Shown piece after piece: positions 45,051 through 63,528 of a stretch of 64,000 nucleotides of DNA. This DNA comes from Sulfurospirillum arcachonense DSM 9755 (GTDB taxonomy: Bacteria; Campylobacterota; Campylobacteria; Campylobacterales; Sulfurospirillaceae): contig NZ_JFBL01000007.1 of NCBI RefSeq assembly GCF_000597725.1, positions 1 to 64,000 on the forward strand, in the 5' to 3' direction. The stretch's first letter is position 1. The number at the start of each line of letters is the position of its first letter. A program made the translations under genes and the position numbers. The notes below the pieces were generated by a model, which saw only the letters and a list, made by a program, of their open reading frames with translations, had not been told where the DNA came from and made no database searches.

Positions 45051-45053
45051 AAT

Positions 45054-45785: not shown

Positions 45786-45790
45786 CTTGA

Positions 45791-46776: not shown

Positions 46777-47743
46777 GACGTATCTCCTTATTTATTATAC
46801 TTAATTTCTCATAAGATATGATGATTCTAAAAAATGCAATTAAAAATATAATTGGTACAAATAAAATCAAATTTTCTACAGCAACAAATAAACCTGTCCC
46901 AGAAGCTATCCATCCAATAAATACCATATAAATTGATATTGTTTTTAAATCTTTTTTCAATATTGTTTGAAGTATGACAACATTATAATAAGAAATAACA
47001 AACGGATAGACAATAGCTAATATATTAGCTTCTCTCAAAAAATATAAGAGATAACTTATAGCAAACAGCACCATTATCAATAACTCTTTTTGATTCTTTT
47101 CTAATTTCACACCTAAAGCTGCTATGACCCCCACAATGTGAAACAGAGCAATCTGAGAACTATAACCACCTCTCCATATAGAAATACTTAAATCTCTAGA
47201 AAGGGATTCAAACAAAGCAGAGTCTAAAAACACCCACAAAACCATAGCAAAGAGTGAATAATTTTCATATTTCATTCTAGAAACTTTTTGTTTTGGTAAA
47301 AATCTTGAACAGACTAAAGTTATGAGACTTAAAACTATAGCTATACTCCCTCGCTCAGAAGCTTCATAATTAAATAAGAAAGTTCCAACAACATAAGAAA
47401 GACTCAAAGATAATCCTATATCCAAAGCCGTAGCTTTTTTTAACTCATTAATTATAAGTGGAGCTAAAGCTCCAACACTAATGCCTAAAATAAAAAGCAT
47501 AATAAAAGAGAATTGGGGATATAAAAAACTCATAATAAGCTGAATAATTAGAAAAAATAATATTTTATTTGAATTAGATGTTTTTATGTAAAAGCTTAAA
47601 AAAGAACCTAATACTCCACCTATAGGAAGTGACGCAATCAAATAAATATTTGATGAAAAATACTCAACAATACCCGTTTGAGCAATAAGTAAATAATAAC
47701 ACAACTCAGAAGCTATAAAAAGCACTAGAATGAATCTTTGCAT
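46769..47743 (-). CDS. Polytopic membrane protein of unknown function
   Basis: A 324-residue inner-membrane protein with about ten hydrophobic helices. The pattern of short loops, and GGVLGSFLSFYIKTSN followed by GISVGALAPLIIN, faintly resembles half of a major-facilitator transporter, but I do not recognise the family. It overlaps the oxidase-like gene upstream by 19 nt and the YceI-like gene downstream by 8 nt, so its product is made together with them. Confidence 0.6.
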   Translation of the reverse strand: MQRFILVLFIASELCYYLLIAQTGIVEYFSSNIYLIASLPIGGVLGSFLSFYIKTSNSNKILFFLIIQLIMSFLYPQFSFIMLFILGISVGALAPLIINELKKATALDIGLSLSLSYVVGTFLFNYEASERGSIAIVLSLITLVCSRFLPKQKVSRMKYENYSLFAMVLWVFLDSALFESLSRDLSISIWRGGYSSQIALFHIVGVIAALGVKLEKNQKELLIMVLFAISYLLYFLREANILAIVYPFVISYYNVVILQTILKKDLKTISIYMVFIGWIASGTGLFVAVENLILFVPIIFLIAFFRIIISYEKLSIINKEIRHV

Positions 47744-49293
47744 AACATCTTTCCTTTCTTTAAAAAAACTACATAAAAAAGTGCAAATACCAAATCAAAT
47801 ACACAAATAACTAAAGCTTCTTTCCCTAAAATATTTGCTGAATACAAAGAAAAGAATACTGCGCTTATAAAAACTCTTATTAATGCTGTAAGCGAGGTCA
47901 AAATATCTTCATGTTCTTTATATTTTAAAGCCATAAAATGAATAACTCCTGTAAGACTTACAAAAGCAAATACAATGTACTGGTACTTTCCATCAAAAGG
48001 TATTTGCATATAAGGGTATATAAAACTTGCTAATAAAATTAAAAATACCCCTCCTAAACCATCATTTAAAACCCCTAGTACATTGTATATTTGTAAATTC
48101 GTTGCTTTGATTTTATAATCTATAAATACGATAATAGATGCAAACGTGATAATTCCAAAGAATGTTCGTGCCATCCAAAGTTGCAAGATATCAATATCTA
48201 TAAAACCTGCTTGTGATAAACCACTCACACTTAAAACACTAAAAATACCGAGCATACCTAAAAGATACACAGTATAAAAAAAGTTTTTTTGAAGTTCTTT
48301 TATATATTGTGTAAACATAGCAATTACCATAAAAAATGCACCTATACCCATGGCTACATGAGCGTGAGCTACCACTAAATCATTTCTATGAAATACCCAT
48401 CGTAGTTCTGGAATAAAAAGAATATTGCCTTCAATATCTACAAATACAAAGGCTAAAATTGATACAAGAAGAGCTTTTTTAGCAAATCCTTCAATATGAG
48501 TATCCTTATACCACTTGTAAAGTAATGGCACATACAAAAATGTTAAATACTGTAAAAACCACTCTTGATTATAAGTAAGTGGCACAAAAAAGATTCTATA
48601 CAAAACAGAAGAAAAATAAAAAATAGTAGGAATAATCCAAAAAATATTCCACTTAGCAACAAATTCACCTTTATTGAGTAATTTTATAATCAAATAATAC
48701 AAAGGGATCATCGATAAACTCATTCCTAAAGTATTATCTCCATGAGGTCCACTTATCGTTCTTTCAACTTGACCGATAATAGGATTCATTAAAATCAACA
48801 GTGTAATTGGCGCAATAATTACTATCTTTAAACATACTTTTACCCAAGTAGGTAACACCTTATATTGTTTAATAAACTTAAATAAAGCGATAATATAAAA
48901 AACACCTGCGAGTGCTAAAATAAAATTCAATTCATAAGGAAAATCATAAAAAGCTAAACCTCTTGTATTTCCAAAAAGAAGTGAGAAAATCATAAATATT
49001 AAAAATATATACCAAAAAATTGTATATAAATTTAAATAATGGAGTCCATCACTGCAACTTCCGACTTCTTTATTAATAATTAAAAAAGGAAGATACGAAA
49101 GCATTAATGTCACAAAACCATAAAGCATTAAACTAATATGGATTGATCTCATATTTGAAGGTAACAATGTTTGTGAATCTATAAAAATACCCAGTAAATT
49201 TAAAGAGTATATAATGCCAAAAAACAGTCCTAATGCAAAAAATACAAAAGATATTTTAAAATTTCTTTGAATAAAACTATTAAAGTTGTCCAT
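47725..49293 (-). CDS. Heme-copper-oxidase subunit I-like protein lacking CuB ligands
   Basis: A 522-residue protein with 12 or more helices. The low-spin haem histidine of helix 2 is in SNMRSIHISLMLYGF (His52), and the helix-10 pair is in VVAHAHVAMGIGAF, matching the HxH that binds low- and high-spin haems in oxidases and NorB. The helix-7 His-His pair and the helix-6 metal ligand are not visible; the latter region reads GPHGDNTLGMS. It is therefore unlikely to be a working terminal oxidase or NO reductase. It may bind b-type haem and move electrons or act in haem or metal handling for the cluster. It overlaps the ABC ATPase gene by 14 nt. Confidence 0.75.
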   Translation of the reverse strand: MDNFNSFIQRNFKISFVFFALGLFFGIIYSLNLLGIFIDSQTLLPSNMRSIHISLMLYGFVTLMLSYLPFLIINKEVGSCSDGLHYLNLYTIFWYIFLIFMIFSLLFGNTRGLAFYDFPYELNFILALAGVFYIIALFKFIKQYKVLPTWVKVCLKIVIIAPITLLILMNPIIGQVERTISGPHGDNTLGMSLSMIPLYYLIIKLLNKGEFVAKWNIFWIIPTIFYFSSVLYRIFFVPLTYNQEWFLQYLTFLYVPLLYKWYKDTHIEGFAKKALLVSILAFVFVDIEGNILFIPELRWVFHRNDLVVAHAHVAMGIGAFFMVIAMFTQYIKELQKNFFYTVYLLGMLGIFSVLSVSGLSQAGFIDIDILQLWMARTFFGIITFASIIVFIDYKIKATNLQIYNVLGVLNDGLGGVFLILLASFIYPYMQIPFDGKYQYIVFAFVSLTGVIHFMALKYKEHEDILTSLTALIRVFISAVFFSLYSANILGKEALVICVFDLVFALFYVVFLKKGKMLCKDSF

Positions 49294-49900
49294 CTTTCAC
49301 CTCATATATTGTGTCTGCTAATGCAGCTAATTTTAAATCATGAGTTGCAACTATAATAATAGTCCCCTCATTTGATAACTTTTTAAACAATTCAAATACC
49401 TTTAACGAATTTTTAGAATCAAGGTTTCCGGTAGGCTCATCTGCAAATATAACAGTAGGTTTATTCATCATTGCACGCGCTATAGCTACTCTTTGCCTTT
49501 GTCCCCCTGATATTTCACTTGGATATTTATTAACTAATTCTTGAATATCTAATTTTTCTAAAAGTGTGTTAATTTCTTCTTCACTGACTTTTTCATTCGC
49601 AATTTTTAAATTATCTTTTACATTAAGATAATTGATTAGATAATGAAACTGAAATATAAATCCAATATTTGTTTGTCTAAAGGTATCTATATTTTCTATC
49701 TCTTTATAATTTGTATCATTGAAGATTACATCTCCCTCACTTGGTTTTAAAAGTGTTGATAAGATAGAAAGTAAAGTAGACTTTCCACTGCCACTCTCTC
49801 CTATTATCGATACAAATTCACCCTTTTTTATCTCAAGGTTTACTCTGTTTAATGCTAAATCATTATTGTATTTATGAGTTATATCTACTGCTTTTATCAT
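49280..49900 (-). CDS. ABC transporter ATPase, LolD/MacB type (module 1)
   Basis: A 206-residue nucleotide-binding subunit with Walker A GESGSGKSTLLS, the Q-loop in IGFIFQFHYL, signature ISGGQRQRVAIARA and Walker B VIFADEPTGNLDS. The last three mark the FtsE/LolD/MacB group. Its partner permease gene overlaps as ATGA (49897-49900). Such systems transmit force to periplasmic partners rather than move solutes across the membrane, and could load or release proteins or metal cofactors for the respiratory enzyme. Confidence 0.9.
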   Translation of the reverse strand: MIKAVDITHKYNNDLALNRVNLEIKKGEFVSIIGESGSGKSTLLSILSTLLKPSEGDVIFNDTNYKEIENIDTFRQTNIGFIFQFHYLINYLNVKDNLKIANEKVSEEEINTLLEKLDIQELVNKYPSEISGGQRQRVAIARAMMNKPTVIFADEPTGNLDSKNSLKVFELFKKLSNEGTIIIVATHDLKLAALADTIYEVKDGQL

Positions 49901-50979
49901 ATTCTATTACCTTGTATTAAACTAACAGGATCAGTTTGAGCCGCATTAAATGCTGGAATAATAGCTCCTATAACAGCCATAGAAATGGAAGTTAGAAAAA
50001 TACTTAAAGCCAATGAAAAAGTTATCTCCCCATTTACATAACCTTGTAAATGAGAAGAATGTTTTATGAGATAAAGAGCAAATTCAGATAACAAAAATGC
50101 ACTTACAAAACTTAAACATCCTAATATCAAACTTTCAAACATAATTGAATAAATAATCTTTTTCATAGAGATACCTAATGCTCTTTTTATACCAAATTCA
50201 CTTTTTCTTTGATTTATAGTGATACTCATAATACTTACAATTCCAAGTAAGCCCATGGCAAAAGCAATTAATGAAATAACATTTGAAGACGTTTTGATGA
50301 TTTTAAATTGATTATAATTATCTACAAAATTATCTGTAGATTTTGCATCGATATTAGTATCTAAAGATTTAATATTTTTTATTAAAAGTTCTATATTAGC
50401 ATTCAAATCACTATTAACCATTATCATAGAAGCACTTTTATTAAATATTTTTCCTGCTTCATCAATATTTATAACAACACTCCCATTTTCAAAGCCTACA
50501 TCACTTGTAAAAACTCCCGATATTTTAAAATCTTTATTTGCAATAGAAATACTATTTTTATTTTTTAGATTCGTATATATTGCTTCTCCAACAAGAGCTT
50601 CATTTTGCTTTGGATAATTATTTTTTATAAGTTTATAATTCTTTAACCTATTTTTAGTCACTCCATAAACAGCAACTATTGGTAGTTTTTCAACTGGTGA
50701 TGCTCCTACTATCATTGCTGATGATTCTTTAACACCATTGAGTCTATCTATCTTGTTTATAAGATTAATATCAACATTAGAGAAGAATGTATCAGAAATC
50801 TTTGCTTGAGTTATTATGATATCACCATCGCTTTTAAGCATACTACTATACATACTTATAATCCCACTAGAAATTGCACTTATTAAAAATATAGATACAA
50901 TTGAAAAAATGAGGCTAAAGTATATAAGAGTTGTTTTTAAAGCATTCGCTTTTAAAGCTTTTATTGCATTACTTAACAA
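49897..50979 (-). CDS. ABC transporter permease, MacB/FtsX type (module 1)
   Basis: A 360-residue protein with one N-terminal helix (about 17-38), a periplasmic MacB-PCD-like domain (40-235) and three C-terminal FtsX helices, the classic type VII ABC layout. Motifs INQRKSEFGIKRALGISMKK and the C-terminal IIPAFNAAQTDPVSLIQGN are typical. Translation begins at TTG 50979 behind AAAGGAA. The 137-nt upstream gap is the longest inside the cluster and carries a triple 11-bp repeat and a -10-like sequence, so an internal promoter is likely here. Confidence 0.87.
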   Translation of the reverse strand: MLSNAIKALKANALKTTLIYFSLIFSIVSIFLISAISSGIISMYSSMLKSDGDIIITQAKISDTFFSNVDINLINKIDRLNGVKESSAMIVGASPVEKLPIVAVYGVTKNRLKNYKLIKNNYPKQNEALVGEAIYTNLKNKNSISIANKDFKISGVFTSDVGFENGSVVINIDEAGKIFNKSASMIMVNSDLNANIELLIKNIKSLDTNIDAKSTDNFVDNYNQFKIIKTSSNVISLIAFAMGLLGIVSIMSITINQRKSEFGIKRALGISMKKIIYSIMFESLILGCLSFVSAFLLSEFALYLIKHSSHLQGYVNGEITFSLALSIFLTSISMAVIGAIIPAFNAAQTDPVSLIQGNRI

Positions 50980-51012
50980 ACTATTCCTTTATATTTTTTG
51001 TAAATATAACAT

Positions 51013-51057
51013 CCGAATATGAAAGGTTTATGAATTGTATATGAACAAATATTCATA
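51013..51057 (-). promoter_or_regulatory. Triple 11-bp direct repeat, candidate response-regulator box
   Basis: Three consecutive 11-bp units end in TATGAA on the plus strand (51013-51023, 51024-51034, 51035-51045). Read on the minus strand each begins TTCATA. The last unit also forms an inverted repeat, TATGAA-6-TTCATA (51040-51057). They lie 34-66 nt before the TTG start of the ABC permease, followed by AT-rich -10-like sequence (TTATAT near 51004). The phasing is typical for OmpR/PhoB-class activators. Confidence 0.5.
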
Positions 51058-51116
51058 TTAAAAGAAGTGTCAAGTAACTAGTAAATTGTCAGTAAAAAAA
51101 GCAGTGAGTTTTATTT

Positions 51117-51701
51117 CTATTTTGGGTATAGTATCAGTTTTTTAATCAAAGGGTTCAGCAAAGTTTCTCCTCTAAGTACATAGAGTCTCACTTCATCAAA
51201 TTCATATATATCTTTTTCTGCATCTGATTCTTTATAATTTTGCAGTCCATACTCATGAGCGGAAAATGTAAAATCACTACCAAGTGCACCCATTGAAGTT
51301 CCGTATGCTCTGACGCCATATCCAATTGGCGTTATACCATCTCTTATATACCAAGCTTCATATGCATCAATATAACATGAACATTCAGGGACAAAAACAA
51401 ACATTTTTATATCTTTTTTAAAACTTTGTTTATCAACCCAACGAATCATACACCCAACATCATCAAAAAAATAAGTTCTTCCACTTGGAGTTACAACTTG
51501 TGCAGAAGTATCAAGTTTTTTGACCATCATGCCACAATCACTACATATAACAGTTTTTTCTTTTTTTATTTCAACTACAGGAAGAGGCTCTTTTTTTATA
51601 TTCTCATCTACATAATATACATTTTCTGAAGTAGTCTGTGCATAATTATAGATAAAAATACCAAATATAATTAAAATAAAATATGGTAATACTCTTTTCA
51701 T
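51117..51701 (-). CDS. NosL-family copper-binding protein
   Basis: A 194-residue membrane-anchored periplasmic protein. An N-terminal anchor/signal (VLPYFILIIFGIFIYN) precedes a NosL domain with the copper motif CSDCGMMV (Cys54, Cys57, Met59), VTPSGRTYFFDDVGCMIRW, the downstream pair PECSCYIDA and MGALGSDFTFSAHEYG. NosL delivers Cu(I) to N2O reductase, and a NosL homologue (MccL, as I recall) belongs to the copper-haem sulfite reductase cluster. GGAG 7 nt before ATG 51701 fixes the start. It overlaps the upstream membrane gene by 4 nt. Confidence 0.88.
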   Translation of the reverse strand: MKRVLPYFILIIFGIFIYNYAQTTSENVYYVDENIKKEPLPVVEIKKEKTVICSDCGMMVKKLDTSAQVVTPSGRTYFFDDVGCMIRWVDKQSFKKDIKMFVFVPECSCYIDAYEAWYIRDGITPIGYGVRAYGTSMGALGSDFTFSAHEYGLQNYKESDAEKDIYEFDEVRLYVLRGETLLNPLIKKLILYPK

Positions 51702-52651
51702 AAAAGCACTCCATTTTTTAAATAATAACTCACTACAAAATATGTAGATAAAGCAACAAATATGGTGGTAAACAATATACAATACTTATGCAAATAAGTA
51801 TATTTTTTTAATGTTATAGATTCAATTATATAAGGAGATATACCAAAAAAAACTCCTAAAAAAAGAGAAAACCAAATAAAGTAGCCTACATAAAAATACT
51901 CTTTTTGCAACATGCAAAATGGACATTTATGGTTTGGTAATTCATAAATGTATGTGCCAAAAAAATACGTAACAGCATAATATGATGTAAATAAAAACAG
52001 TATATTTGCAAAAAAACTAATGATGCTTTTTTTATAGTACGATGATATTAAGATAACTACAAAAAGTAAGTAATATATTATCAGTAAGCCTGATGTGTTT
52101 AATTCAAATGGTAAATTATCTAATTTAAAAACTGTACTACAACAAAAGACTGGTACACTTAATGGTATATTCATAAAATAAAATAGCTCTAAGCAAAACT
52201 CTATACATGTAAGAACAAAAATAAAACTAAATAGATAATACTTCTCTTTTATATATGGAAAAACTTTTGATTCTAAGTCAAGTTTATTAATAATAATCCA
52301 AATACTAAGTAAAAATAACATAAAAATTTTAAACAACAATAAAATGTTTCCGTAGGAATTTGCTCCAATAACACCTGTTGCACACATAGCTCCAGGAACT
52401 AAAAGTGAAAGCTCATCCAATGATTTAACAAAAAAGATAAAAAGTACTATTTTTACTGATACTGTAAAATATATTATAGTATTAACCAAATAATTTCTTT
52501 TTTCCAAAGCATATTGAAAAGTAGTGGTTGCACTAAAATCCCAATATTTTAAAACTTTTAAGACAGAAAATTCACTAATAAATAACAAAAGTAATAAAAT
52601 AACTTCTATAAATATAAAAACTACTATGTCATTTAACAAAAAAAGAGACAT
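51698..52651 (-). CDS. Cys-rich polytopic membrane protein with CPFC motif
   Basis: A 317-residue integral membrane protein with about eight helices. Cysteines are placed at loop/helix borders: Cys90, Cys149 and Cys153, Cys170-Cys171, and a CPFCML motif at 243-248. The last recalls thiol-oxidoreductase or VKOR/DsbB-like membrane proteins, but I do not recognise the family. Position between a NosL gene (4-nt overlap) and an ABC ATPase gene (1-nt overlap) suggests copper or thiol handling in the periplasm. Confidence 0.65.
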   Translation of the reverse strand: MSLFLLNDIVVFIFIEVILLLLLFISEFSVLKVLKYWDFSATTTFQYALEKRNYLVNTIIYFTVSVKIVLFIFFVKSLDELSLLVPGAMCATGVIGANSYGNILLLFKIFMLFLLSIWIIINKLDLESKVFPYIKEKYYLFSFIFVLTCIEFCLELFYFMNIPLSVPVFCCSTVFKLDNLPFELNTSGLLIIYYLLFVVILISSYYKKSIISFFANILFLFTSYYAVTYFFGTYIYELPNHKCPFCMLQKEYFYVGYFIWFSLFLGVFFGISPYIIESITLKKYTYLHKYCILFTTIFVALSTYFVVSYYLKNGVLL

Positions 52652-53328
52652 TAAATAATTGCTCCATCTTCTATATTTACATATGTATCAACAAAAGCTA
52701 AATTATCAAATATTGTATCATGAGTTGCTACAACTACCGTTTTATTTAATTGTTTGAATTTTTTTAAAATATCAACAAATATTAATGAATTATTTTTATC
52801 TAAATTTGCAGTAGGCTCATCAGCTAAAATAAGAGAAGGTGAATTGACTAAGGCTCGTGCAATTGCACACCTTTGTTTTTCTCCTCCACTTAAATTTGAA
52901 ACCATCTGTTGAGACTTATGCGCTATGTTTGCAACTTCTAAAGCTAAATTAATTTTTTTCTTTAATTCATCTTGATTTATATTACTTAATACTAGAGGAG
53001 CTTTAACATTATCATAAACACTTAAGCCATCTACTAAATTGAACGATTGAAATATAAATCCAACCTCTTCATTTCTATATTGCGAGGAAAAAATATCAGG
53101 AAGTTTTGCAATATTTTGCTCATTTACCAATATATCACCGCTACTTGGTTTACTTAGTGCTCCAATAAGAGAAAGTAAAGTACTTTTTCCACTGCCACTA
53201 ATACCTTTTATAATAACAATTTCTCCACACTTTATATTTAAATTTATATTTTTAAGGGCAAAAAACTCATTTTCTTTTTTTTCATTATAAATCTTGTATA
53301 AATTTCTTATTAAAATTTTGGATCTCAT
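52651..53328 (-). CDS. ABC transporter ATPase, LolD/MacB type (module 2)
   Basis: A 225-residue nucleotide-binding subunit with Walker A KGISGSGKSTLLSLIGAL, Q-loop EVGFIFQSFNL, signature NLSGGEKQRCAIARALV and Walker B LILADEPTANLDKN. It is clearly related to, but distinct from, the module 1 ATPase at 49280. It overlaps its permease gene by 4 nt (ATGA) and the Cys-rich membrane gene by 1 nt. Confidence 0.9.
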   Translation of the reverse strand: MRSKILIRNLYKIYNEKKENEFFALKNINLNIKCGEIVIIKGISGSGKSTLLSLIGALSKPSSGDILVNEQNIAKLPDIFSSQYRNEEVGFIFQSFNLVDGLSVYDNVKAPLVLSNINQDELKKKINLALEVANIAHKSQQMVSNLSGGEKQRCAIARALVNSPSLILADEPTANLDKNNSLIFVDILKKFKQLNKTVVVATHDTIFDNLAFVDTYVNIEDGAII

Positions 53329-54425
53329 TTTATTACCTCACTCATATCTTCTACTGCTATTTTCCATGCAGGCAATAAAATAGAGGCTAAAAAAGGAATA
53401 ACAGTAAATATAAACATAACAAAAAGTGTTTTTACATCTACAATAGGTGTAAATATAATATGGCTAGCATCATGCCCTAAAAATATATTTTTTAATAATG
53501 GAGCACCAAAGATAAATACAAAAATATATGCTAAGAATACACCTAAAAAGTAAGAACAAAGAGCAACTACACTATTTTGAATAAATTTAAGAAAAATAAT
53601 ATCTTTTATCGCAAACCCTATACTTCTAAATATTGCTATTTCACGTTTTTTTTCACCAAATACAGAAGATATTTGATTTTTTAAAAGAATAAAAAATGAT
53701 ATCATCGATACTATATATAAAATCATAAATATACCTCCTTTATAATAAAAAACATATTCATAATCTGACTTTAAATCATTTTTTGTTTTTACCTTTATAT
53801 CAGGATACAAATCAACTATTTTTAGTGAAATAAAATCTATCTCACTATTATTAGGAACTAATACATCTAGATAAGAGTATTCATCTTCATCCATATTCAA
53901 AATTTTTCTTGCAATATCTTCGTTTACTAAGATAACATCATTAGAAATGATATTGGATTTAATAACTTTTTTAATATCCAAGCTAGTAATACCATCTTGG
54001 GTTAAAAAATTAAATTGAGTGGTGTATTTAAATTTTGCTAAAATAGATTTAATTTCAGAAGATATAATCATACTATGCTCATCTAAAGATTCATCAACAA
54101 CTATATGAAAATATCGTCTATCTTGAGCAAAATAATAATAGCCATCAACTTTACCTTTAACGTTATCCACTCCAGAAATTTGTAAAATACTATCAATATG
54201 CTCTTCACTTAAAGGTGTATACCTACCAGACTTTGTATTTTTTACTATAATTTGGTGCTGTTTATCCAAAGCTATAAACAGATCATGTTTAATAGAATCT
54301 GATATAAATAAGATTGAACTTGCTAAAAAAACAATAAAAGTAAAAATAAAAAAACTAAATAAGTACTCTTTTTTATCTTTTAAAAGTAAAAGTATAGAAA
54401 AATCAACAAAATTTTTATTTATCAT
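53325..54425 (-). CDS. ABC transporter permease, FtsX type (module 2)
   Basis: A 366-residue type VII ABC permease with one N-terminal helix (about 20-42), a periplasmic domain (43-240) and three C-terminal helices. The FtsX signature is FGEKKREIAIFRSIGFAIKD, and the end reads FTVIPFLASILLPAWKIAVE. ATG 54425 with AAGAAG is preferred over a longer start at 54455. It works with the ATPase at 52651. The gene overlaps the preceding small-protein gene by 11 nt. Confidence 0.85.
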   Translation of the reverse strand: MINKNFVDFSILLLLKDKKEYLFSFFIFTFIVFLASSILFISDSIKHDLFIALDKQHQIIVKNTKSGRYTPLSEEHIDSILQISGVDNVKGKVDGYYYFAQDRRYFHIVVDESLDEHSMIISSEIKSILAKFKYTTQFNFLTQDGITSLDIKKVIKSNIISNDVILVNEDIARKILNMDEDEYSYLDVLVPNNSEIDFISLKIVDLYPDIKVKTKNDLKSDYEYVFYYKGGIFMILYIVSMISFFILLKNQISSVFGEKKREIAIFRSIGFAIKDIIFLKFIQNSVVALCSYFLGVFLAYIFVFIFGAPLLKNIFLGHDASHIIFTPIVDVKTLFVMFIFTVIPFLASILLPAWKIAVEDMSEVIK

Positions 54426-54603
54426 AAACAAACTTCTTATATTCTTTTGACGCAAAGGAAAAAGAGGGAGATATAGAAGTCATTTTTGAAGAAATCTCCT
54501 TAATCTTATCTTCTTTTTCAACATAATCATAAGTCACTAAATCACCAATAATGATTACTAAAAAAATGAAAAAAATAATTAATATCCTTTTTATAAAAAA
54601 CAC
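54415..54603 (-). CDS. Small single-span membrane protein, 62 aa
   Basis: A short protein with one strong hydrophobic helix (ILIIFFIFLVIIIGDLVTY) and a charged C-terminal tail of about 40 residues, probably periplasmic. No family is recognised. It starts at GTG overlapping the TAG stop of the NosL-like gene and overlaps the next permease gene, so it is embedded in the operon. It may be a small accessory subunit of ABC module 2. Confidence 0.6.
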   Translation of the reverse strand: MFFIKRILIIFFIFLVIIIGDLVTYDYVEKEDKIKEISSKMTSISPSFSFASKEYKKFVYDK

Positions 54604-55664
54604 TACAGCTCCTCAATCTCTTCTAAAACATCTTGATCAATGTCATAAAAAGTAAGTACTTTTTTTCCAAAATGATCTTTTTTAAATGCATACGCACTAA
54701 TTTCAGAGCTAAAAGGTATAAGCTCATTTCCCATAGGACCATATACGTTAGATCCAAATACAAAATATGCATCTTTAGCTTTAATTTTCGTTGTTGAAAA
54801 ATAATCAGTTATATAAATATTTTTTACATCTATATCTTCTTTATGAGAAAAAATATACTTTATCATATCTTTCACACCATCAAAATAGAGCTTTTTATCT
54901 GCATCTATCATAGCTGCCCATTTTGGATACTTATGAACAAACATACCACATATAGGACATTTTGCATCTTTTGGTACTTTAATCGAACCTATTGCCCCCA
55001 TTTTTTTATGAAGTTTTTGTGTATCCCAAAGATATACAGCTACAGCTTGCAAAGCTTTATCTTTTGAAATCTTACATTCACTTTTTAGCCCTGCTTTTAA
55101 AGAGGCTATACTCTCAAAAGCTTCTGGGTTTACTTTATTACATTTAGCTAAATACAATTTTTTGCCAACTTTATAGACTTTTTTTTGTCTTTTTGTATTT
55201 ATCATTGATGTATCTTTTTTTAAATCTATTTTTGCTAATTCATATGCTTGTGCAAAATCAACAATTTGTCCACCATATTTTTTTCTAAACTCTTGTACAT
55301 CTTTTTCTTTTGCAAATGCATATTTGCTATGTACACTCATTGTCCCTTTTTTGGTGCTATTAACCACATAATAAGCATTTTTTACACCAATAAACTTTAA
55401 ACTTTTAGTATCTACAACTTTTGCATCTTGAAGTTTTTTTCCATTATTTGATTCAGCTAAACAATGTAAAGAACAGTACTGATGATTTTTATGAATATGA
55501 TTTGTTTTATAAAACTTTGGTAAATTCATCCCGCAATTTGGACAATACAATTTTGTATTACCTTTTTGAACAAATGTCCCTTTGTCTTCAGATATTGACT
55601 GAAACATTTTTGCATTTGAAACAGTAAACATGAGTGCTAATATACATAAATACTTAACAAACAT
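54603..55664 (-). CDS. Double NosL-domain periplasmic protein
   Basis: A 353-residue exported protein with two NosL-type copper sites. After the signal peptide (ending VSNAK) the first site is CPNCGMNLPKF at 41-46, with extra cysteines in QYCSLHC (64, 68). The second is KCPICGMFVHKYPKW at 236-241. Each is followed by the NosL-like pattern with a YFDG or similar segment and a late GPMG motif. Two domains in one chain would bind two metal ions or hand copper from one site to another. ATG 55664 has AGGA upstream. Confidence 0.82.
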   Translation of the reverse strand: MFVKYLCILALMFTVSNAKMFQSISEDKGTFVQKGNTKLYCPNCGMNLPKFYKTNHIHKNHQYCSLHCLAESNNGKKLQDAKVVDTKSLKFIGVKNAYYVVNSTKKGTMSVHSKYAFAKEKDVQEFRKKYGGQIVDFAQAYELAKIDLKKDTSMINTKRQKKVYKVGKKLYLAKCNKVNPEAFESIASLKAGLKSECKISKDKALQAVAVYLWDTQKLHKKMGAIGSIKVPKDAKCPICGMFVHKYPKWAAMIDADKKLYFDGVKDMIKYIFSHKEDIDVKNIYITDYFSTTKIKAKDAYFVFGSNVYGPMGNELIPFSSEISAYAFKKDHFGKKVLTFYDIDQDVLEEIEEL

Positions 55665-55665
55665 A

Positions 55666-56508
55666 CTAATTTCCTTTTTTACTATCATCTAAATATTTAT
55701 AATTGGTACATGCTAATTTAAGCCCTTTATCACAGGCTGTTTTAAAAAGACTTTTAGCTTTTATAGTATCTTGTTTTACACCATTTCCCTGAATATGTAA
55801 TATACCAAGGTTATTACATCCTTTAGCAAACTTTTTATCACATGCTTTTTTGTACAATTGGGAAGCTTTTTTATAATCTTGTTTGAGCCCTAAACCATTT
55901 TCATGCATAACACCAAGATTTTCACAAGCCATATAAACATTACCATCACATGCTTTTTTATAAAATGCATTTGCTCTTTTATAATCTTTTTTAACGCCTT
56001 CACCATGAGCATACATGTAACCTAAATTATTACATCCTATCAAATCAAAACTTGCACAAGACTTTTCATAAAAAGTAGTTGCCATTTTTTTATCTTGAGT
56101 AACTCCATCACCTTGGGCATAGATTCGTCCTAAATTATTACAAGCTGCTCCATCCTTATCTTTACATGCTTTTTTATATAATTTCACTGCTTTTTTTATA
56201 TCTTTTTTAACATTTTTTCCAGCGCTATAAATCACCCCTAAGTTATAACATGCTGAAGTAAATTTTTCATCACATGCTTTTTTATAATAACTCATGGCTT
56301 TAGTAACATCTTTTTTTATTCCATCTGAGCCCATATATAAAACACCTAAATTATAACAAGCTGATGCTTTTCCTTCATTACAAGCCTTTTGATATATACT
56401 TGCTACTTTTTTATGCTCACCTTTTTTATGCGCTTCAACACTTTCTTTTATATACCCAGCTTCAGCTGTAAGAAAAAACGCCATTAATATAATTATAATT
56501 TTTTTCAT
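55666..56508 (-). CDS. Sel1-like repeat, Cys-rich exported protein (HcpA type) A
   Basis: A 280-residue protein with signal peptide (IIIILMAFFLTAEAG) and seven Sel1-like repeats of about 36 residues. Each repeat carries two cysteines in the pattern YKKACDxxxxxxCYNLG, which form a disulfide in the Helicobacter cysteine-rich proteins. It is a solenoid scaffold likely to hold periplasmic partners together, and old annotation as beta-lactamase is doubtful. It is followed 1 nt later by the double-NosL gene and preceded by a second Sel1 gene. Confidence 0.85.
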   Translation of the reverse strand: MKKIIIILMAFFLTAEAGYIKESVEAHKKGEHKKVASIYQKACNEGKASACYNLGVLYMGSDGIKKDVTKAMSYYKKACDEKFTSACYNLGVIYSAGKNVKKDIKKAVKLYKKACKDKDGAACNNLGRIYAQGDGVTQDKKMATTFYEKSCASFDLIGCNNLGYMYAHGEGVKKDYKRANAFYKKACDGNVYMACENLGVMHENGLGLKQDYKKASQLYKKACDKKFAKGCNNLGILHIQGNGVKQDTIKAKSLFKTACDKGLKLACTNYKYLDDSKKGN

Positions 56509-56519
56509 TTTGATTCCTT

Positions 56520-57353
56520 TTAAAAACCCATATCAGTTAACATTAAATACTCTATACAGCTAGCATTATCACCCATACTACAAGCTCTTTTATATATCTT
56601 TCTTGCTTTTGGGTAACTTTGTTTTACACCTCTACCTGTTGAATACAAAATAGCTAATTTATAACATTGTGTAGTGTTACCAACTTTACACCCCTCAGTA
56701 TACTCATCAAAAACTTTTTTAAAATCTTTAGAATCAAGTGCTGCTACACTTTTTATTTGAATATCTACAAGACGAAAACAAGATTGCGTATCTTCTCGAT
56801 CACATCCTTCTTTGTACCATTTTATAGCTTTCTTTTTATCTTTTGGCTCATAAATATTACCTAACTTGTAACATCCTAAAATTGCTCCTTTTTCACATGC
56901 TTGTTCATACATACTCACCATATTTTCTTTATTTTTATCAGGATTTAAAGAATATTGGTACATCCCTCCTAAATTATAACAAGCCAATGAAAAACCATTT
57001 TTACAAGATTTTTTATAATAAGTTTCTGCTTTTAAATAATCCTTTTCAACATTTACAATACCACCCTTATCAAAACAAACACCTACTTGAAAACAACCTC
57101 TTGCACTACCAAAAGTACATGCTTTTTCATATAAATTGAAAGCTTTTCTAAAATCTTGCTTGAGACTTTGTTTATTTTCATACATAAAACCCAATTTATA
57201 GCATCCATCTGCATTATTGTTATCACATGCTTTTTCATAATTTAGTGCTGCTTGTTTATAATTTCCTTTAGCGTATGCTTTTATACCATCTTCTAAAAAA
57301 CTTCCATAAAGTAACATTGAACCCATAAATAAACAAATTATAATCTTTTTCAT
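56520..57353 (-). CDS. Sel1-like repeat, Cys-rich exported protein (HcpA type) B
   Basis: A 277-residue relative of the neighbouring Sel1 protein. The signal peptide (IIICLFMGSMLLYGS) is followed by seven Cys-paired repeats, with more degenerate spacing and an insertion near repeat 4 (NPDKNKENM). The pair probably arose by an old duplication, because the sequences differ widely outside the repeat core. It is 11 nt from its neighbour and co-transcribed with the cluster. Confidence 0.85.
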   Translation of the reverse strand: MKKIIICLFMGSMLLYGSFLEDGIKAYAKGNYKQAALNYEKACDNNNADGCYKLGFMYENKQSLKQDFRKAFNLYEKACTFGSARGCFQVGVCFDKGGIVNVEKDYLKAETYYKKSCKNGFSLACYNLGGMYQYSLNPDKNKENMVSMYEQACEKGAILGCYKLGNIYEPKDKKKAIKWYKEGCDREDTQSCFRLVDIQIKSVAALDSKDFKKVFDEYTEGCKVGNTTQCYKLAILYSTGRGVKQSYPKARKIYKRACSMGDNASCIEYLMLTDMGF

Positions 57354-57368
57354 ATCTATCCTTTTTGA

Positions 57369-58649
57369 TTAATTTAATGTCTCAGTCATAATTGACTTTC
57401 TCAACATTGCTCTAATATTATCCATACCCATATAAAACTCCTTCATCATAGAAACAATAAGAAACTCTCCAAATCTAGTTGGATAAATAATCCCTTTTTT
57501 TATATCAATTGCTTTAACTCTTTTTAGCATAAAAATTTCTAATTTTAAAATGTTTTCTAAATTAACTTTAAATAGTTTATTAAACTTTTTAATTTCAACA
57601 CAACCACCAAAAAGATATAGTAAAAATTGATATTGAATATGTTTTTTAAGTGTAAATAGCTTACTCGAAGCAATAATGGCATTAGTATTATTGGTAACTA
57701 ATTCTTTATATTGATTTAAATCATAAGCATTTACATGTAATTGATTATTAATATGGCTAAAAGCTCCACTGCCTATACCTATATATTCACTATTCGTAAC
57801 TGTGTATTCATCACTAATATTTGTCTTTGTTTTAGAAAATGACCATGCATTATTTAAACTATAATCCGCTAATTCTTCTCTTATAATATTATATAACTCA
57901 AACTCTTTACTCTTCTTCAAAGTCAAAAAATGCTCTAACATTGACTGATTTATGGCTTTTGAATTCATAAGAGGATATGTAGTGATTTGTTCAACATCTA
58001 ATTGTTTTGCTATATGTAAATCATGTCTTAGCATCTCTTCATTTTGCATATCCAAATTAAAAATTAAATCTAAACTAATAATAGGGATAATTCCTACAAC
58101 AGCAGAAATTTTATCTTGCAAAATTTCAGATGAACCATATTTATCATATCTTGAAATCTTTTTTAATATGCTATTATCAAAAGTTTGAACACCAATAGAG
58201 AGTCTATCAATAAGTCCTTTAAAATTTGTAAGGATATTTGCATCTATATGATTTGGTGTACTCTCACATGAAACTTCTTTGATATCAAAAAGTTTCTTTG
58301 CTAACTCTAACGTTAGCATAAGTTCTTTTTCATCGATTAGAGGAGTCCCTCCACCAATGTATAAAGTGTCAAAAGAAAATCCTTCTTCTTTTGCTTTTAA
58401 TAATTCTAATCTTACATTTGCAAAATACTCTTTACATGTACTTTCATTGTATTTAAATTTGTGGAAAGTACAAAAAGTACAAAATTCATGGCAAAAAGGT
58501 ACATGTATATATAAAAAATAACTTTTATTTTTATCAAAAATATGTTTTGTAGGTGATGTTGTATAACCTAAATCCAAATTAGAAGCCATAGATTTTCTTA
58601 TTGCTTCTGCACTACTAAATAATGAGGCTGTTTCTATAATCTTTTTCAT
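57369..58649 (-). CDS. HemW-like radical SAM protein
   Basis: A 426-residue radical SAM protein of the HemN/HemW/HutW superfamily with cluster motif CHEFCTFC (Cys53, 57, 60), LYIGGGTPL, RLSIGVQTFD and a C-terminal HemN-type domain with IGIGSGAFSHI. The fourth HemN-specific cysteine (CxxxCxxCxC) is absent, so it is not a coproporphyrinogen dehydrogenase. HemW-like proteins bind haem as chaperones and HutW-type ones open haem. In a cytochrome-maturation cluster, haem delivery is the better guess. Confidence 0.78.
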   Translation of the reverse strand: MKKIIETASLFSSAEAIRKSMASNLDLGYTTSPTKHIFDKNKSYFLYIHVPFCHEFCTFCTFHKFKYNESTCKEYFANVRLELLKAKEEGFSFDTLYIGGGTPLIDEKELMLTLELAKKLFDIKEVSCESTPNHIDANILTNFKGLIDRLSIGVQTFDNSILKKISRYDKYGSSEILQDKISAVVGIIPIISLDLIFNLDMQNEEMLRHDLHIAKQLDVEQITTYPLMNSKAINQSMLEHFLTLKKSKEFELYNIIREELADYSLNNAWSFSKTKTNISDEYTVTNSEYIGIGSGAFSHINNQLHVNAYDLNQYKELVTNNTNAIIASSKLFTLKKHIQYQFLLYLFGGCVEIKKFNKLFKVNLENILKLEIFMLKRVKAIDIKKGIIYPTRFGEFLIVSMMKEFYMGMDNIRAMLRKSIMTETLN

Positions 58650-58660
58650 TGTTTTTTATT

Positions 58661-59164
58661 TCAATCTTTAAGGGTTGCTATTTTATAAATAATAAATCCA
58701 AATATAATAATTACGGCTAACGAATACCACAATAAAGAATCTTTTATAACTACGTAACTTACAATCAATGTTGATAACAAAGTTGGTACTTCATTATATG
58801 CTCTAAAAAAATGACCGCTTTTTGTACACTCATTTTTTGCTAAACTTACTCTATAGTATTCCATACTAAAACTATATATTATTAAAAAACCTAACGCTAA
58901 AATTTTTAAATGCATCCATGATTCTTGTAAAAGATATGGATTTAAATACAATATTAATCCACCACTGGCAATAGAAGCCCACAAAGCTGGTAAACCAATG
59001 TATTTATATAATTTGTATTCTTGAATCTCAACTACTTGAACAAACTCTTTTTTATGACTATGTTCTTTATGATAAACAAATAACCTTGGCAAATAAAACA
59101 TTACTGCCATCCACGACATCACTGACATAAAATGAAATGTCAATATATATGTATAATACTCCAC
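58661..59164 (-). CDS. HemJ/CopD-like four-helix membrane protein
   Basis: A 167-residue membrane protein of the HemJ (UPF0093)/CopD-like family. The conserved N-terminal His is in ILTFHFMSVMSWMAVMFYLPRL, with LFVYH, then four helices and a late NEVPTLLSTLIVSYVVIK. HemJ oxidises protoporphyrinogen IX to protoporphyrin IX in bacteria without HemG or HemY, and the related CopD acts in copper uptake. Both fit a haem- and copper-requiring enzyme cluster. Translation starts at GTG behind AAGGA. Confidence 0.72.
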   Translation of the reverse strand: MEYYTYILTFHFMSVMSWMAVMFYLPRLFVYHKEHSHKKEFVQVVEIQEYKLYKYIGLPALWASIASGGLILYLNPYLLQESWMHLKILALGFLIIYSFSMEYYRVSLAKNECTKSGHFFRAYNEVPTLLSTLIVSYVVIKDSLLWYSLAVIIIFGFIIYKIATLKD

Positions 59165-59197: not shown

Positions 59198-61879
59198 TTA
59201 TTTAATTACTTTAACCGCTCGACCTCTATAAGCTAATGATGCTATTATAAGAACTATCAAAATCATATAATATACAAAATTAGGCACAGGTACCTTATCT
59301 CCTGAGGCATATGAATGAAGACCTGAGAGATAAAAATTGACTCCAAAATACGTCATTATAATTGATGCAAATGAAATAACTGAAGCCACTGAAAATACAT
59401 AAATAGTATTCAGCTTTGGAATGAAACGTAGATGTAAAACCATGGTGTAAACAACAATTGAGATAAAAGACCATGTCTCTTTTGGATCCCAACCCCAATA
59501 TCTTCCCCACGATTCATTTGCCCAAACACCACCAATAAAATTACCCACTGTTAATAACGACAAACCTATTATTAAACTTATTTCAGTAATTGCTGAAATC
59601 TGTCTTATTTGAATATCTAATCTAATTTCATTTTTTTGATTTCTAAATATCATCAATACTAGTGCAATAAAAGCAAGTAAAGCACCAAGTCCTAAAAATC
59701 CATAACTAGCAGTAATAACTGATACATGTATGCTTAACCAATACGATTTTAAAACAGGAACAAGCGTTGTAATTTGAGGACTAATAAAATTAAGATGCGC
59801 TACAAGCATAATGACTCCACCTAAAAGTGCTGATGCAGATAATGCTAATAATGATTTTCTAAACACTATAAGACCAGCTAAAAGTGTTGACCATCCAATA
59901 TATATTAGTGATTCATAAGTATCACTCCAAGGAGCATGATTTGAAATATACCATCTCATAAGAATTCCAGCACTATGAAAGAGAAATCCAAAAAGTAAAA
60001 GATAAAAAAATATTTTATTTAAATATCTATAATTTTTTTCAAAAAATATTGAGATAATTGCAATTACTAAAATAATAAATCCCAAGATAAAATAAAAACT
60101 TATAAGCTTTTGAAATATTTTCAATTTATTAAATAAAATCTCAACATCTAATTGACTTTTTGTTGGCAATATATCACTACTGTATTTTAGTTGATTATTT
60201 TTTAACGCTTTTAATGCTTTATTAGCTTCAGCCCAATCATTATTTTTTATGCCTACTTTTAACGCTTTTATATATGTATACAAAGTTTCACGGATATTTT
60301 GTTCTAACCATATCTCTGCACTAGCATCTTGAGGGCTATACCATGTATTTTTTTCATCATTTGGTTTTGGAATAAACTTAGTAAAAAATCCTTTAGATGC
60401 CATATAAAATATATTTAATCTTTCATCTAATTTAATGAGATCCTTATCAAAAGTTCCTCTTTTAGCAGGTGCTTTTGCATTAGCCTCATCAACTTCATTT
60501 TTGAGTTTATACTCTCCATTTTCTTTAAAAATATCAGAAAAAGATATATATTTTTCTGATTGACGAATACCTATAAGTTTTTTTATTTTTTTATTTTTTA
60601 TTTTAATTAATTTTACATCTTCCCAAACTAAAGGATCTGCTAAAATCCCTAACATAATTTGCTCTGGTTTTAAACCAAGTAATGAATCTTTTCCTGACAT
60701 TTTGTGCATAACATCAATAGACTCTGTACTCATAGGTTTAATACGACCATTATAATCTTGCACTAAAAGTTTTCCAAAAGCTTTTGAGTGTTCTAGAGAA
60801 TTCACTTTGTATTTTTCAATATATGCCAAAGCATCCGCTTTTAAACAAGTTGAGAAACTCATAAGAACAACTATCATAAGAGACAAATTACTTTTGTGTA
60901 AAAAACTTTTTAGTCTAGAAAACCTACTTCCTTTTGTAAAAAAGTTTAATACAAATCCTAAACTCAACAAGAAATAGCCTAAATATGTAGGCCATTTACC
61001 TGGATCATTATTAACAGAAAGAATTGTGCCTAACTCATCTCTGTCATATGATGATTGAAAAAATTTAAAACCTTTATAAGAGAGTGGGTGATTCATAAAA
61101 ATTCTATGTTTAACATTAATATTTTCTTTTTCATCTATTAGTGTTACTTCACTAGCATATGAAGAAGGACTCATAGAGCCAGGGTATCTATCTATTTGAA
61201 AATCTTCTAATTTAATTTTAAAAGGTAAATTAATCAACTTTGAACCCCAAGATACTTGAACTTCTAAACCATCATAATAAAGACTACTTGGAGGCTCAAT
61301 ACTACCATGTCCCCCTCTTACTTCTATCTCTTTTACTTGTCCATTATAAGTGACTTTTAAAGTTAATTTATCTACATTTGTAATTTTAAAATATTGATAC
61401 TCTTTAAATTCTACAATAAAGTTTTTACCTTCTATTTTATCTTCAAATTTAAAATTATTATTTCCTATTTTTCCAAGGGCAAGTAGATGCTCGTAGCTTT
61501 GATTTTCCGTATTGATTTGAAGGTATGACTCTTCTGATATTACTTTATACTCACTCATACCTTCTCTTACATGTAAAACTCCTTCGTAACCAAAATATCT
61601 TGTTACTCCAGCACCAATTAAGACAACAACAAATCCTACATGAAACACAAAAGCTCCAAGTCTTCTCCACATTTTTCTCTTATATACTAACCCTATTAAT
61701 GAAACAGCTAAAAACACCATAACCACTTCATACCAAAGCGCATGATAAACTAATACTTTAGCAGTTTGACTATCATAATCATTTTCTATAAATGTAGCAA
61801 TAGCTGCCCCAACTCCTAATATAAAGAGCATTAAAATAACAAAACTATAAGAGAAAAACACTTTTTTGAAAAAACCCAT
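59198..61879 (-). CDS. CcsBA-type cytochrome c haem lyase (system II), CcsA1-like
   Basis: A fused System II synthetase of 893 residues. The N-terminal ResB/CcsB part has four helices and a large periplasmic domain (about 100-300), and the C-terminal CcsA part carries the haem-binding WWD region ANESWGRYWGWDPKETWSF and flanking histidines. It exports haem and attaches it to apocytochrome c. Campylobacterota carry several paralogues with different specificity; the one in the Wolinella mcc locus (CcsA1) serves the unusual wide-spaced haem motif of MccA. Position beside FKBP-FeS-NrfD genes points to that dedicated role. Confidence 0.88.
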   Translation of the reverse strand: MGFFKKVFFSYSFVILMLFILGVGAAIATFIENDYDSQTAKVLVYHALWYEVVMVFLAVSLIGLVYKRKMWRRLGAFVFHVGFVVVLIGAGVTRYFGYEGVLHVREGMSEYKVISEESYLQINTENQSYEHLLALGKIGNNNFKFEDKIEGKNFIVEFKEYQYFKITNVDKLTLKVTYNGQVKEIEVRGGHGSIEPPSSLYYDGLEVQVSWGSKLINLPFKIKLEDFQIDRYPGSMSPSSYASEVTLIDEKENINVKHRIFMNHPLSYKGFKFFQSSYDRDELGTILSVNNDPGKWPTYLGYFLLSLGFVLNFFTKGSRFSRLKSFLHKSNLSLMIVVLMSFSTCLKADALAYIEKYKVNSLEHSKAFGKLLVQDYNGRIKPMSTESIDVMHKMSGKDSLLGLKPEQIMLGILADPLVWEDVKLIKIKNKKIKKLIGIRQSEKYISFSDIFKENGEYKLKNEVDEANAKAPAKRGTFDKDLIKLDERLNIFYMASKGFFTKFIPKPNDEKNTWYSPQDASAEIWLEQNIRETLYTYIKALKVGIKNNDWAEANKALKALKNNQLKYSSDILPTKSQLDVEILFNKLKIFQKLISFYFILGFIILVIAIISIFFEKNYRYLNKIFFYLLLFGFLFHSAGILMRWYISNHAPWSDTYESLIYIGWSTLLAGLIVFRKSLLALSASALLGGVIMLVAHLNFISPQITTLVPVLKSYWLSIHVSVITASYGFLGLGALLAFIALVLMIFRNQKNEIRLDIQIRQISAITEISLIIGLSLLTVGNFIGGVWANESWGRYWGWDPKETWSFISIVVYTMVLHLRFIPKLNTIYVFSVASVISFASIIMTYFGVNFYLSGLHSYASGDKVPVPNFVYYMILIVLIIASLAYRGRAVKVIK

Positions 61880-61906: not shown

Positions 61907-62848
61907 TTATACGCTAAAAATTTGCCCTGCATACACTATAAATAGACGTAAACAAAAAACGCCAACTAAACTAGAAAGTCCAGATGTATAAAATACCGCT
62001 AATGAATTTGACATCTTTTTTCCTAAGGCAAAATTTAAAACTAGTGGTAATATAAAACCAATACCTACAACACCAAACCAAAACACATTTGCCCAGACTC
62101 CACTGTGAAATCCTTCTATAGCAACATGTCCTGATGCTCCACCTACTAATAAACCAACATAAAGCATGCTTAAAAACATTACTTCTACAAACATTATTGG
62201 CCATTCAACTTTATGAAGAATTTTCATATCGCCAGAATGCATATCTTCTTTAAATAATTTATGTGATACTAAACTCAACGATGCAACACCAACTGAAAGT
62301 CCAGAAACTACAAACAGGGCTGGTAAAATTGCAGTATTTAACATAGGAAAACGAACTAATATTGAAATTAGAAACCCTGTATAAGCACATATAATCACAG
62401 CAAAAAATACTGTCACACCTTCAAGAGGACTTCTTACTATTTTTAATAAATCTATAATTGGAGATAAAAATCCAAAAAGTGATTTAATTTCTTTTTCAAA
62501 AGCATATATAACTATTACACATGTTAAAGGAATATACACGGATATCGCAGCAACACCAATAGACATAACAGAAGAAAAATTATAATTTATTAAAATCTTC
62601 CAAAAAACAAAAGGTTTTTCCAAATCTGCTACTAAAAAAACCATTCCTAACATAATTGTCGAACAAGAAATTAAAGCAGACGATTTGTATACTGCTGTAT
62701 TTTCAGTTTGCTTTTTATAAAACCGGATTGCTAAAGCTAATATTAATGCTCCTCCAGAAATACCTGCTAACAACAAATAAACAGCAATTGGCCAATGCCA
62801 ACCTATCCCTTCAGTGAAACCAACTGTAAAATTAATTGATTCATTCAT
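61907..62848 (-). CDS. NrfD-family quinol dehydrogenase membrane subunit (MccD-like)
   Basis: A 313-residue polytopic protein with eight or more helices. The NrfD-type N terminus is INFTVGFTEGIGWHWPIAVYLLLAG, where GWHW and the following loop form the quinol side, and VADLEKPFVFWKILI marks the family. NrfD proteins bind (mena)quinol without haem and pass electrons to a partner iron-sulfur protein, here the gene 2 nt upstream. Together they would form the quinol dehydrogenase MccCD for sulfite reductase. NrfCD- or PsrBC-type use for another reductase is the alternative. Confidence 0.88.
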   Translation of the reverse strand: MNESINFTVGFTEGIGWHWPIAVYLLLAGISGGALILALAIRFYKKQTENTAVYKSSALISCSTIMLGMVFLVADLEKPFVFWKILINYNFSSVMSIGVAAISVYIPLTCVIVIYAFEKEIKSLFGFLSPIIDLLKIVRSPLEGVTVFFAVIICAYTGFLISILVRFPMLNTAILPALFVVSGLSVGVASLSLVSHKLFKEDMHSGDMKILHKVEWPIMFVEVMFLSMLYVGLLVGGASGHVAIEGFHSGVWANVFWFGVVGIGFILPLVLNFALGKKMSNSLAVFYTSGLSSLVGVFCLRLFIVYAGQIFSV

Positions 62849-62850
62849 GA

Positions 62851-63528
62851 TTAAACTCCTAACTTAACAATAGGTATGTATCTTAAACTAGGTTTTGTAC
62901 CAAAACCTGGTTTCATACGAACAGAATCTTTCACTCTTAATAATTTATTTATATAAGATGTTTCATCATTTAAATCTCCAAATACTAAAGCTGTATACTT
63001 ACAAGCTTCAACACATGCTGGTTTTTTGCCTTCTTTAAAATTGCTATTTAAACAAAAATTACAATTTTCAGCAGCTTTTGTCTCTTCATTAATAAAACGA
63101 ACATCATAAGGGCAAGCAACAATACAATACTTACATCCTATACAATCATCCGCATTCATAGTAACAATATTTGTTATTGAATCTCTATGTGAAGCATTTG
63201 TAGGACAGGCTTGCACACAAGGAGCCTCTTCACACTGTTGACAAGAAACACGAACATATCTTTTCTCATCAGTATGATTCTGATCAGTTTTATCTTGAAC
63301 AAATAGACGTTTTTGCCCTTTTGGTACTAAATTTATCTCTGCACATGCATTTTCACAATCAGTACAACCAACACATTTATTTTGATCAAAAACCATCCCA
63401 TAATGGGGACTTTTGTCAACTTTTTGATTTTCTTCATTAGCACTTAAACTATATTGCATAGTGCTAAGAAGAACTGAACCAAAACCTATGCCCTTTAGGA
63501 AAGTTCTTCTATCATTTTTATTACCCAT
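62851..63528 (-). CDS. Tat-exported four-[4Fe-4S] protein, NrfC type (MccC-like)
   Basis: A 225-residue electron-transfer protein. The Tat signal is DRRTFLKGIGFGSVLL. Sixteen cysteines sit in four groups (CVGCTDCENAC, CQQCEEAPCVQAC, CIGCKYCIVAC, and CNFC with CVEAC), giving four [4Fe-4S] clusters. It would accept electrons from the NrfD-type subunit and pass them to the periplasmic cytochrome. A strong GGAGG precedes the ATG. The gene is 26 nt downstream of the FKBP gene and 2 nt upstream of nrfD. Confidence 0.9.
   Translation of the reverse strand: MGNKNDRRTFLKGIGFGSVLLSTMQYSLSANEENQKVDKSPHYGMVFDQNKCVGCTDCENACAEINLVPKGQKRLFVQDKTDQNHTDEKRYVRVSCQQCEEAPCVQACPTNASHRDSITNIVTMNADDCIGCKYCIVACPYDVRFINEETKAAENCNFCLNSNFKEGKKPACVEACKYTALVFGDLNDETSYINKLLRVKDSVRMKPGFGTKPSLRYIPIVKLGV

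Follow-up and report, generated by a model that had tools for sequence, protein, structure and literature searches.

The mcc operon of Sulfurospirillum arcachonense DSM 9755 raises the question of how copper reaches MccA, the octahaem haem-copper sulfite reductase that the operon encodes. We analyzed the first 64,000 nucleotides of contig NZ_JFBL01000007.1 (the window), in which the operon runs on the minus strand and ends in six coupled genes at 51117-55688. In gene direction, these encode NosLL, which has two NosL domains, a 62-residue protein, an FtsX/LolC/MacB-type permease, its ATP-binding cassette (ABC) ATPase partner, a membrane protein called CPFC here, and NosLs, which has a single NosL domain. 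We consider it rather likely that the six gene products form a copper-delivery or site-assembly machine for the periplasmic MccA of the same operon. A copper-site assembly role separate from that of NosDFY, the ABC system of nos clusters, is the best reading of the sequence evidence. This would tie the copper supply of MccA and the extra ABC genes of some nos clusters to one coupled six-gene unit.

A coupled gene set behind MccA

A complete mcc operon ends in these six genes, and the gene for its catalytic subunit is located past the end of the window (Table 1). The operon has an octahaem MccA with seven CXXCH motifs and one CX15CH motif, two non-haem cysteines in MccA, the subunits MccB to MccD, and CcsBA. 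The MccA crystal structure 4RKM is a match for the MccA of this contig, and the non-haem cysteines C407 and C504, invariant in 26 aligned MccA sequences, align with both of those in 4RKM. With a constant offset of 12, they would correspond to Cys399 and Cys495 in the published numbering, presumably the copper ligands.

All named genes are open on the minus strand at the positions given in Table 1, according to the list of open reading frames and the sequence. Genes of the set overlap at every junction and are translationally coupled. The permease and ATPase genes share ATGA (53325-53328), the ATPase and CPFC genes share TAATG (52649-52653), the CPFC and NosLs genes share ATGA (51698-51701), and the 62-residue reading frame overlaps both of its neighbours, the NosLL and permease genes. 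An earlier reading of the same DNA, made without database searches (the sequence-only reading), had described two ATPase-permease pairs with ATGA junctions, a NosL protein, CPFC and the 62-residue protein; all of these are present, and both ATPases and both permeases have the expected domain matches. The double NosL protein NosLL lay outside the limits of that reading and is counted in the set here. The association of the genes is beyond chance: among 142 loci fetched for CPFC, FtsX is present in 131 and the ATPase in 133, and 123 encode a NosL protein.

The ligands of NosL are a cysteine and two methionines. NosLL has the motifs C49-x2-C52-G-M54 ... M117 and C244-x2-C247-G-M249 ... P318-M319-G, with ligand positions kept in 43 homologues; its PF05573 score (144 bits) is above the Pfam cut-off, and its second domain aligns with the NosL of PDB entries 7og7 and 7osf. 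NosLs scores 18.7 bits against the cut-off of 24 and has the motif C56-G-M58 ... M126, whose C, M, and M are conserved across 128 family members. NosL is described as a carrier of Cu(I) (PMC7558416). Judging by fold and ligand conservation, the NosL domains of NosLL and NosLs, up to three in all, may carry Cu(I).

The permease has the layout of a type VII ABC protein, with a helix, a large periplasmic domain, three more helices, and an FtsX C-terminal domain above the Pfam cut-off. An AlphaFold model (mean predicted local distance difference test score, pLDDT, 82.7) gives the same arrangement, with a long first helix, and its top Foldseek matches in the PDB are LolCDE (1.9e-14) and MacB (2.4e-12), along with HrtB and LolC/LolE, at a structure-aligned sequence identity of about 10-15%. 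The protein is under all NCBIfam cut-offs shown, and BLASTP detected no similarity between it and NosY. In the ATPase, Walker A, signature, and Walker B are intact, and the motif residues are conserved in 142 homologues. From the predicted fold, permease and ATPase could form a mechanotransmission pump of the LolCDE/MacB kind, in which ATP hydrolysis changes the shape of the periplasmic domain. Such a pump might instead release a lipoprotein or fold MccA, as the closest folds are LolC/LolE and MacB, and MccB is an FKBP-type isomerase. We regard this as very improbable because the block lacks a lipoprotein, adaptor or outer-membrane gene, and because NosL genes and a cysteine-rich protein accompany the pump across settings.

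The gene for the 62-residue protein is conserved by its position before the FtsX gene and by its F-V-Y tail. Under a strict pattern for an F-[VIAG]-Y tail, 75 of 126 loci have such a small reading frame ahead of the FtsX gene. The one-helix small proteins at this place fall into two size classes of about 60-90 and about 100 residues, and the longer forms have an internal F-[VT]-Y. From its position, the 62-residue protein may serve the pump as a small coupling subunit.

CPFC represents an undescribed membrane protein family. A Pfam and NCBIfam scan of 27 diverse members gave no match, a 72-row profile matched no PDB sequence, and a Foldseek search of the model against 350,542 PDB chains had a best E value of 1.9. 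The family has three invariant or nearly invariant motifs, G-A-M-C90-x2-G, V-x-C170-C171, and Y-x-Y-x2-P-x-H241-x-C243-P-x-C246. M89, C90, C170, C171, H241, C243, and C246 are invariant, and the cysteine positions are present in 65 of 65 and 72 of 72 aligned members in two alignments. The AlphaFold model, made from the 72-row alignment (pLDDT 90.1, predicted template modelling score 0.84), has eight long helices, with the cysteine motifs in the loops that join helices 2 to 3, 4 to 5, and 6 to 7. These cysteines are predicted to be periplasmic because lysine and arginine are enriched in the opposite loops (loops 3-4 and 7-8 have means of 3.6 and 3.4, the others 0.5, 1.0, and 1.3). As to occurrence outside the phylum, the best 80 of at least 433 relatives bear Campylobacterota names, save one labelled only 'Proteobacteria bacterium'.

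With five invariant cysteines, Met89, and His241 on the predicted periplasmic side, CPFC could either relay Cu(I) or act as a thiol partner that keeps the cysteines of the copper site reduced. The C-P-F-C motif made it a candidate DsbB/VKOR-like protein, which we rejected, as no such match was found among PDB folds or Pfam families. The whole set could also serve thiol-redox support, with the pump and CPFC moving reductant or passing disulfides to keep the cysteines of MccA and NosL reduced, like the relay of reductant suggested for FetABCDEF or CydDC. The five cysteines, with their C-P-x-C, would suit this role, MccA requires free cysteines for eight haems and the copper site, and the FetABCD proteins of Campylobacter jejuni likewise pair ABC permeases and an ATPase with a cysteine-rich eight-helix protein (PMC10783030). 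We find this explanation unlikely, since CPFC lacks a DsbB, VKOR, or DsbD fold match, the set contains no thioredoxin gene, and a NosL gene nearly always accompanies it. Reduction and loading with Cu(I) may also be inseparable.

Occurrence at mcc, nos, and other loci

In a draw of 249 Campylobacterota genomes, CPFC is present in 87, in 103 copies. In 40 of the 41 genomes with an MccA of the window's type (identity of at least 62%) the CPFC and MccA genes lie 9.4-12.7 kb apart; the remaining genome has a contig break, with MccA at the start of one contig and the module on another that ends at MccB. Fully read mcc loci (L037, L039-L049) have the order Sel1-NosLL-62aa-FtsX-ATPase-CPFC-NosLs behind CcsBA, and the same tail occurs in records named Sulfurospirillum, Campylobacter concisus, and Campylobacter showae and in metagenome-assembled genomes. 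At least one Sel1 gene is found in every mcc locus read, and the small gene is uncalled in a few. One mcc locus whose MccA is 100% identical to 4RKM over 702 residues carries all six genes from NosLL to NosLs. A stand-alone copy (L085 in genome G166) is highly divergent, with a CPFC identity of 26-28% and the longest tree branch; the MccA of this genome is identical to 4RKM.

The sequence-only reading proposed that other mcc and nos loci be searched for the block. The unit recurs in both settings. In nos clusters, the unit follows genes in the order NosD-G-C-C-H-F-L-Y (e.g. L052, L053, L056, L072, L075, L080, L082, L089), and in L243 it is located upstream of NosZ; the identities of NosD (PF05048), NosY (matching 7o0y), and NosZ were checked on representatives. 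NosDFY sits beside the unit in nos clusters. CPFC occurs in 58 of 75 genomes with NosZ versus 29 of 174 without it (Fisher p 6e-20, uncorrected for ancestry). In a tree of CPFC sequences, the mcc copies form a single clade (Shimodaira-Hasegawa-like approximate likelihood ratio test support 96), which the nos-borne copies adjoin. Counted by starred branches, nos placement requires at least 11 changes, in part owing to neighbours hidden by contig ends. The single mcc clade and the repeated nos placement suggest that the unit moved between copper-enzyme settings. Spread on plasmids was considered and rejected, as the unit had no match in PLSDB.

Several observations weigh against the proposed role in copper delivery to MccA. 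Sorted by distance, 40 CPFC copies lie close to MccA, 12 close to NosZ, and 51 close to neither enzyme. Two of these 51 belong to mcc loci, one interrupted by a contig break and one from a genome that yielded no MccA, so 49 of 103 copies are away from both enzymes. Wide occurrence away from copper or haem enzyme genes, which the sequence-only reading had named as the finding that would count against it, is therefore partly seen, and NosL is kept nearly always. NosL is missing from 15 of the 142 loci, which have the FtsX, ATPase, and CPFC genes. NosZ does not need CPFC, since 17 of the 75 NosZ genomes lack it. In addition, 35 genomes encode a short MccA homologue (47-52% identity) that keeps the same two non-haem cysteines, and none of them has the unit near this gene, for which reason we rejected the idea that the copper ligands of MccA alone explain the presence of the unit. 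Since the short form cannot be assumed to bind copper, it does not serve as a clean counter-example. At the 15 loci read (L170-L184, e.g. L172:6731-8794), short MccA is paired with a six-CXXCH protein; the one member scanned combines a rhodanese-like domain with a cytochrome b561-like one. Short MccA possibly has another substrate or metal. An extra cysteine three residues before the first non-haem cysteine (CPAC) is present in 14 of 15 short MccA sequences.

The copies away from both enzymes would fit general copper homeostasis, in which the unit would remove periplasmic Cu(I) by export, sequester it, or pass it on to several enzymes (cbb3 oxidase, for example) and would sit in the mcc operon for co-regulation only. 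Many copies adjoin a protein of the DsbD_2 family (an HCxGMCGG membrane protein beside the block in 41 of the 142 loci), a neighbour that also speaks for the copper-site role. The window's genome, in which no NosZ was found, has a second copy of the unit on contig C2 (L006:9044-14418), with separate NosL genes for proteins of 233 and 300 residues in place of the NosLL fusion. The link to the MccA operon is, however, invariant across several families and the mcc copies form one clade, and we consider this alternative improbable. The cbb3 subunit CcoN is encoded in 237 of 249 genomes and CPFC in only 87, hence cbb3 does not need the unit and a general cbb3 factor was rejected. The copper role of the unit, with MccA as the likely target of the machine, is probable from gene context, conservation, and predicted folds. 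In Campylobacterota, the unit may assemble Cu(I) sites generally, at NosZ and elsewhere as well as at MccA.

A separate operon next to the mcc genes

The sequence-only reading treated the ABC pair at 49280-50979 as part of the same device. We rejected this, because the pair belongs to a conserved operon of its own (43019-50979) that occurs elsewhere, and only the unit with the pair at 52651-54425, the NosL proteins, the 62-residue protein, and CPFC is retained from the proposed copper-loading device as a conserved entity tied to mcc and also found in nos clusters. A gap of 137 bases separates NosLs from the MacB-type permease, the only one of the two permeases with a MacB_PCD domain (49897-50976); its gene shares ATGA (49897-49900) with the ATPase gene. 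The operon continues with a COX1-like protein, TM324 (a 324-residue membrane protein), YceI, p151 (a 151-residue periplasmic protein), a metallophosphoesterase, a response regulator, and a histidine kinase. Strong matches to the MacB-type permease and the COX1-like protein, in the same order, are present in 23 of the 249 genomes. In 16 other genomes read, the set continues to TM324 and usually to YceI, p151, the metallophosphoesterase, and a two-component system, and no mcc genes were found near it. One genome (G206) has both the mcc locus and this operon, about 0.8 Mb apart. Because the operon of the second pair is conserved away from mcc, it is probably only the arrangement of this genome that places the two ABC pairs side by side. 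Regrouped in this way, the MacB pair is part of a different conserved operon that is built around a cytochrome-oxidase-like protein and deserves a separate study. As judged from 12 members, the COX1-like protein keeps H51, H183, and H309-x-H311, and no TM7-like His-His pair was seen in its sequence; its profile matched no PDB chain.

Table 1. Genes of the mcc operon and of the adjacent operon (window positions unless marked)
Feature	Position	Strand	Evidence
MccA, octahaem haem-copper sulfite reductase	contig 64419-66530, just past window end		
MccB (FKBP) and MccA	contig 63555-66530, outside window		domain scan, haem motifs
MccC, 4Fe-4S protein	62851..63528	-	domain scan
MccD, NrfD-type quinol dehydrogenase membrane subunit	61907..62848	-	PF03916 4.4e-67
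CcsBA cytochrome c synthase	59198..61879	-	ResB and Cytochrom_C_asm domains
HemJ-like (UPF0093) membrane protein	58661..59164	-	PF03653 2.1e-45
HemN-like radical SAM protein	57369..58649	-	PF04055 8.3e-15
Two Sel1-repeat proteins	55666..57353	-	PF08238 1.3e-55 for 55666-56508
NosLL, two NosL domains, putative soluble periplasmic Cu(I) chaperone	54603..55688	-	PF05573 4.1e-42, 2 stretches
62-residue protein, one N-terminal helix, C-terminal F-V-Y tail	54415..54603	-	reading frame
FtsX/LolC/MacB-type permease, 4 helices, one large periplasmic domain	53325..54425	-	PF02687 3.9e-9
ABC ATPase partner, LolD/FtsE-like	52651..53325	-	PF00005 1.1e-32
CPFC, 8-helix membrane protein	51698..52651	-	model; no family match
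NosLs, membrane-anchored, single NosL domain, final mcc operon gene	51117..51701	-	PF05573 0.0024, below cut-off
MacB-type permease, separate operon	49897..50979	-	PF12704 (MacB_PCD) and PF02687 1.2e-16
ATPase, separate operon	49280..49900	-	PF00005 5.5e-36
COX1-like protein, separate operon	47725..49290	-	PF00115 27.7 bits, below 34.8 cut-off

Comparison with known systems

The mcc operon of Wolinella succinogenes, the source of the MccA in 4RKM, has the same gene order from MccA to NosLs as the operon in the window. The tail genes, among them a NosL-like MccL, may have been named before in the mcc papers of Kern et al. 2011, Hermann et al. 2015, and Eller et al. 2019, and we do not claim that these genes were previously unnoticed. 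A 2016 paper described five genes between nosL and nosY in the nos cluster of Sulfurospirillum cavolei (a hypothetical gene, an ABC permease, an ATPase, and two hypothetical genes), uninterpreted and with no link to mcc (PMC4794192). This insertion matches the order of the nos-borne unit (small protein, FtsX, ATPase, CPFC, NosLs), and we equate the two by gene order and neighbours rather than by sequence comparison. We further propose, though as a tentative extension, that CPFC founds a Cu(I)/thiol membrane family and could form, with the FtsX pump, the F-V-Y protein, and NosL, a second ATP-driven copper insertase, distinct from NosDFY, for two enzymes of different chemistry, the haem-copper MccA and NosZ. 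If true, copper sites would have a second ATP-driven route of assembly; the five invariant cysteines of CPFC offer a basis for specific predictions.

The unit resembles FetABCD, encoded in fetMP-fetABCDEF of C. jejuni, in joining an ABC transporter to an eight-helix membrane protein with cysteine pairs in a metal context. FetABCDEF, in contrast, serves iron and has two permeases as well as FetM and FetP, and its FetA has DUF2318 and YHS domains (PMC10783030); CPFC had no Pfam match to DUF2318, and the unit has one permease. With the type VII machines LolCDE, MacB, and FtsEX, the unit shares the predicted permease fold and the ATPase class, but it lacks their adaptor or lipoprotein partner. In NosDFY-L, an ABC ATPase, a permease, and a NosL Cu(I) chaperone are likewise encoded with a periplasmic copper reductase. 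NosY is of the ABC-2 type, whereas the permease of the unit is of the FtsX/LolC type, and the block lacks NosD and adds CPFC and the small protein; both systems co-occur in single nos clusters. By analogy, the unit is best described as a putative functional parallel of NosDFY-L with a non-homologous permease.

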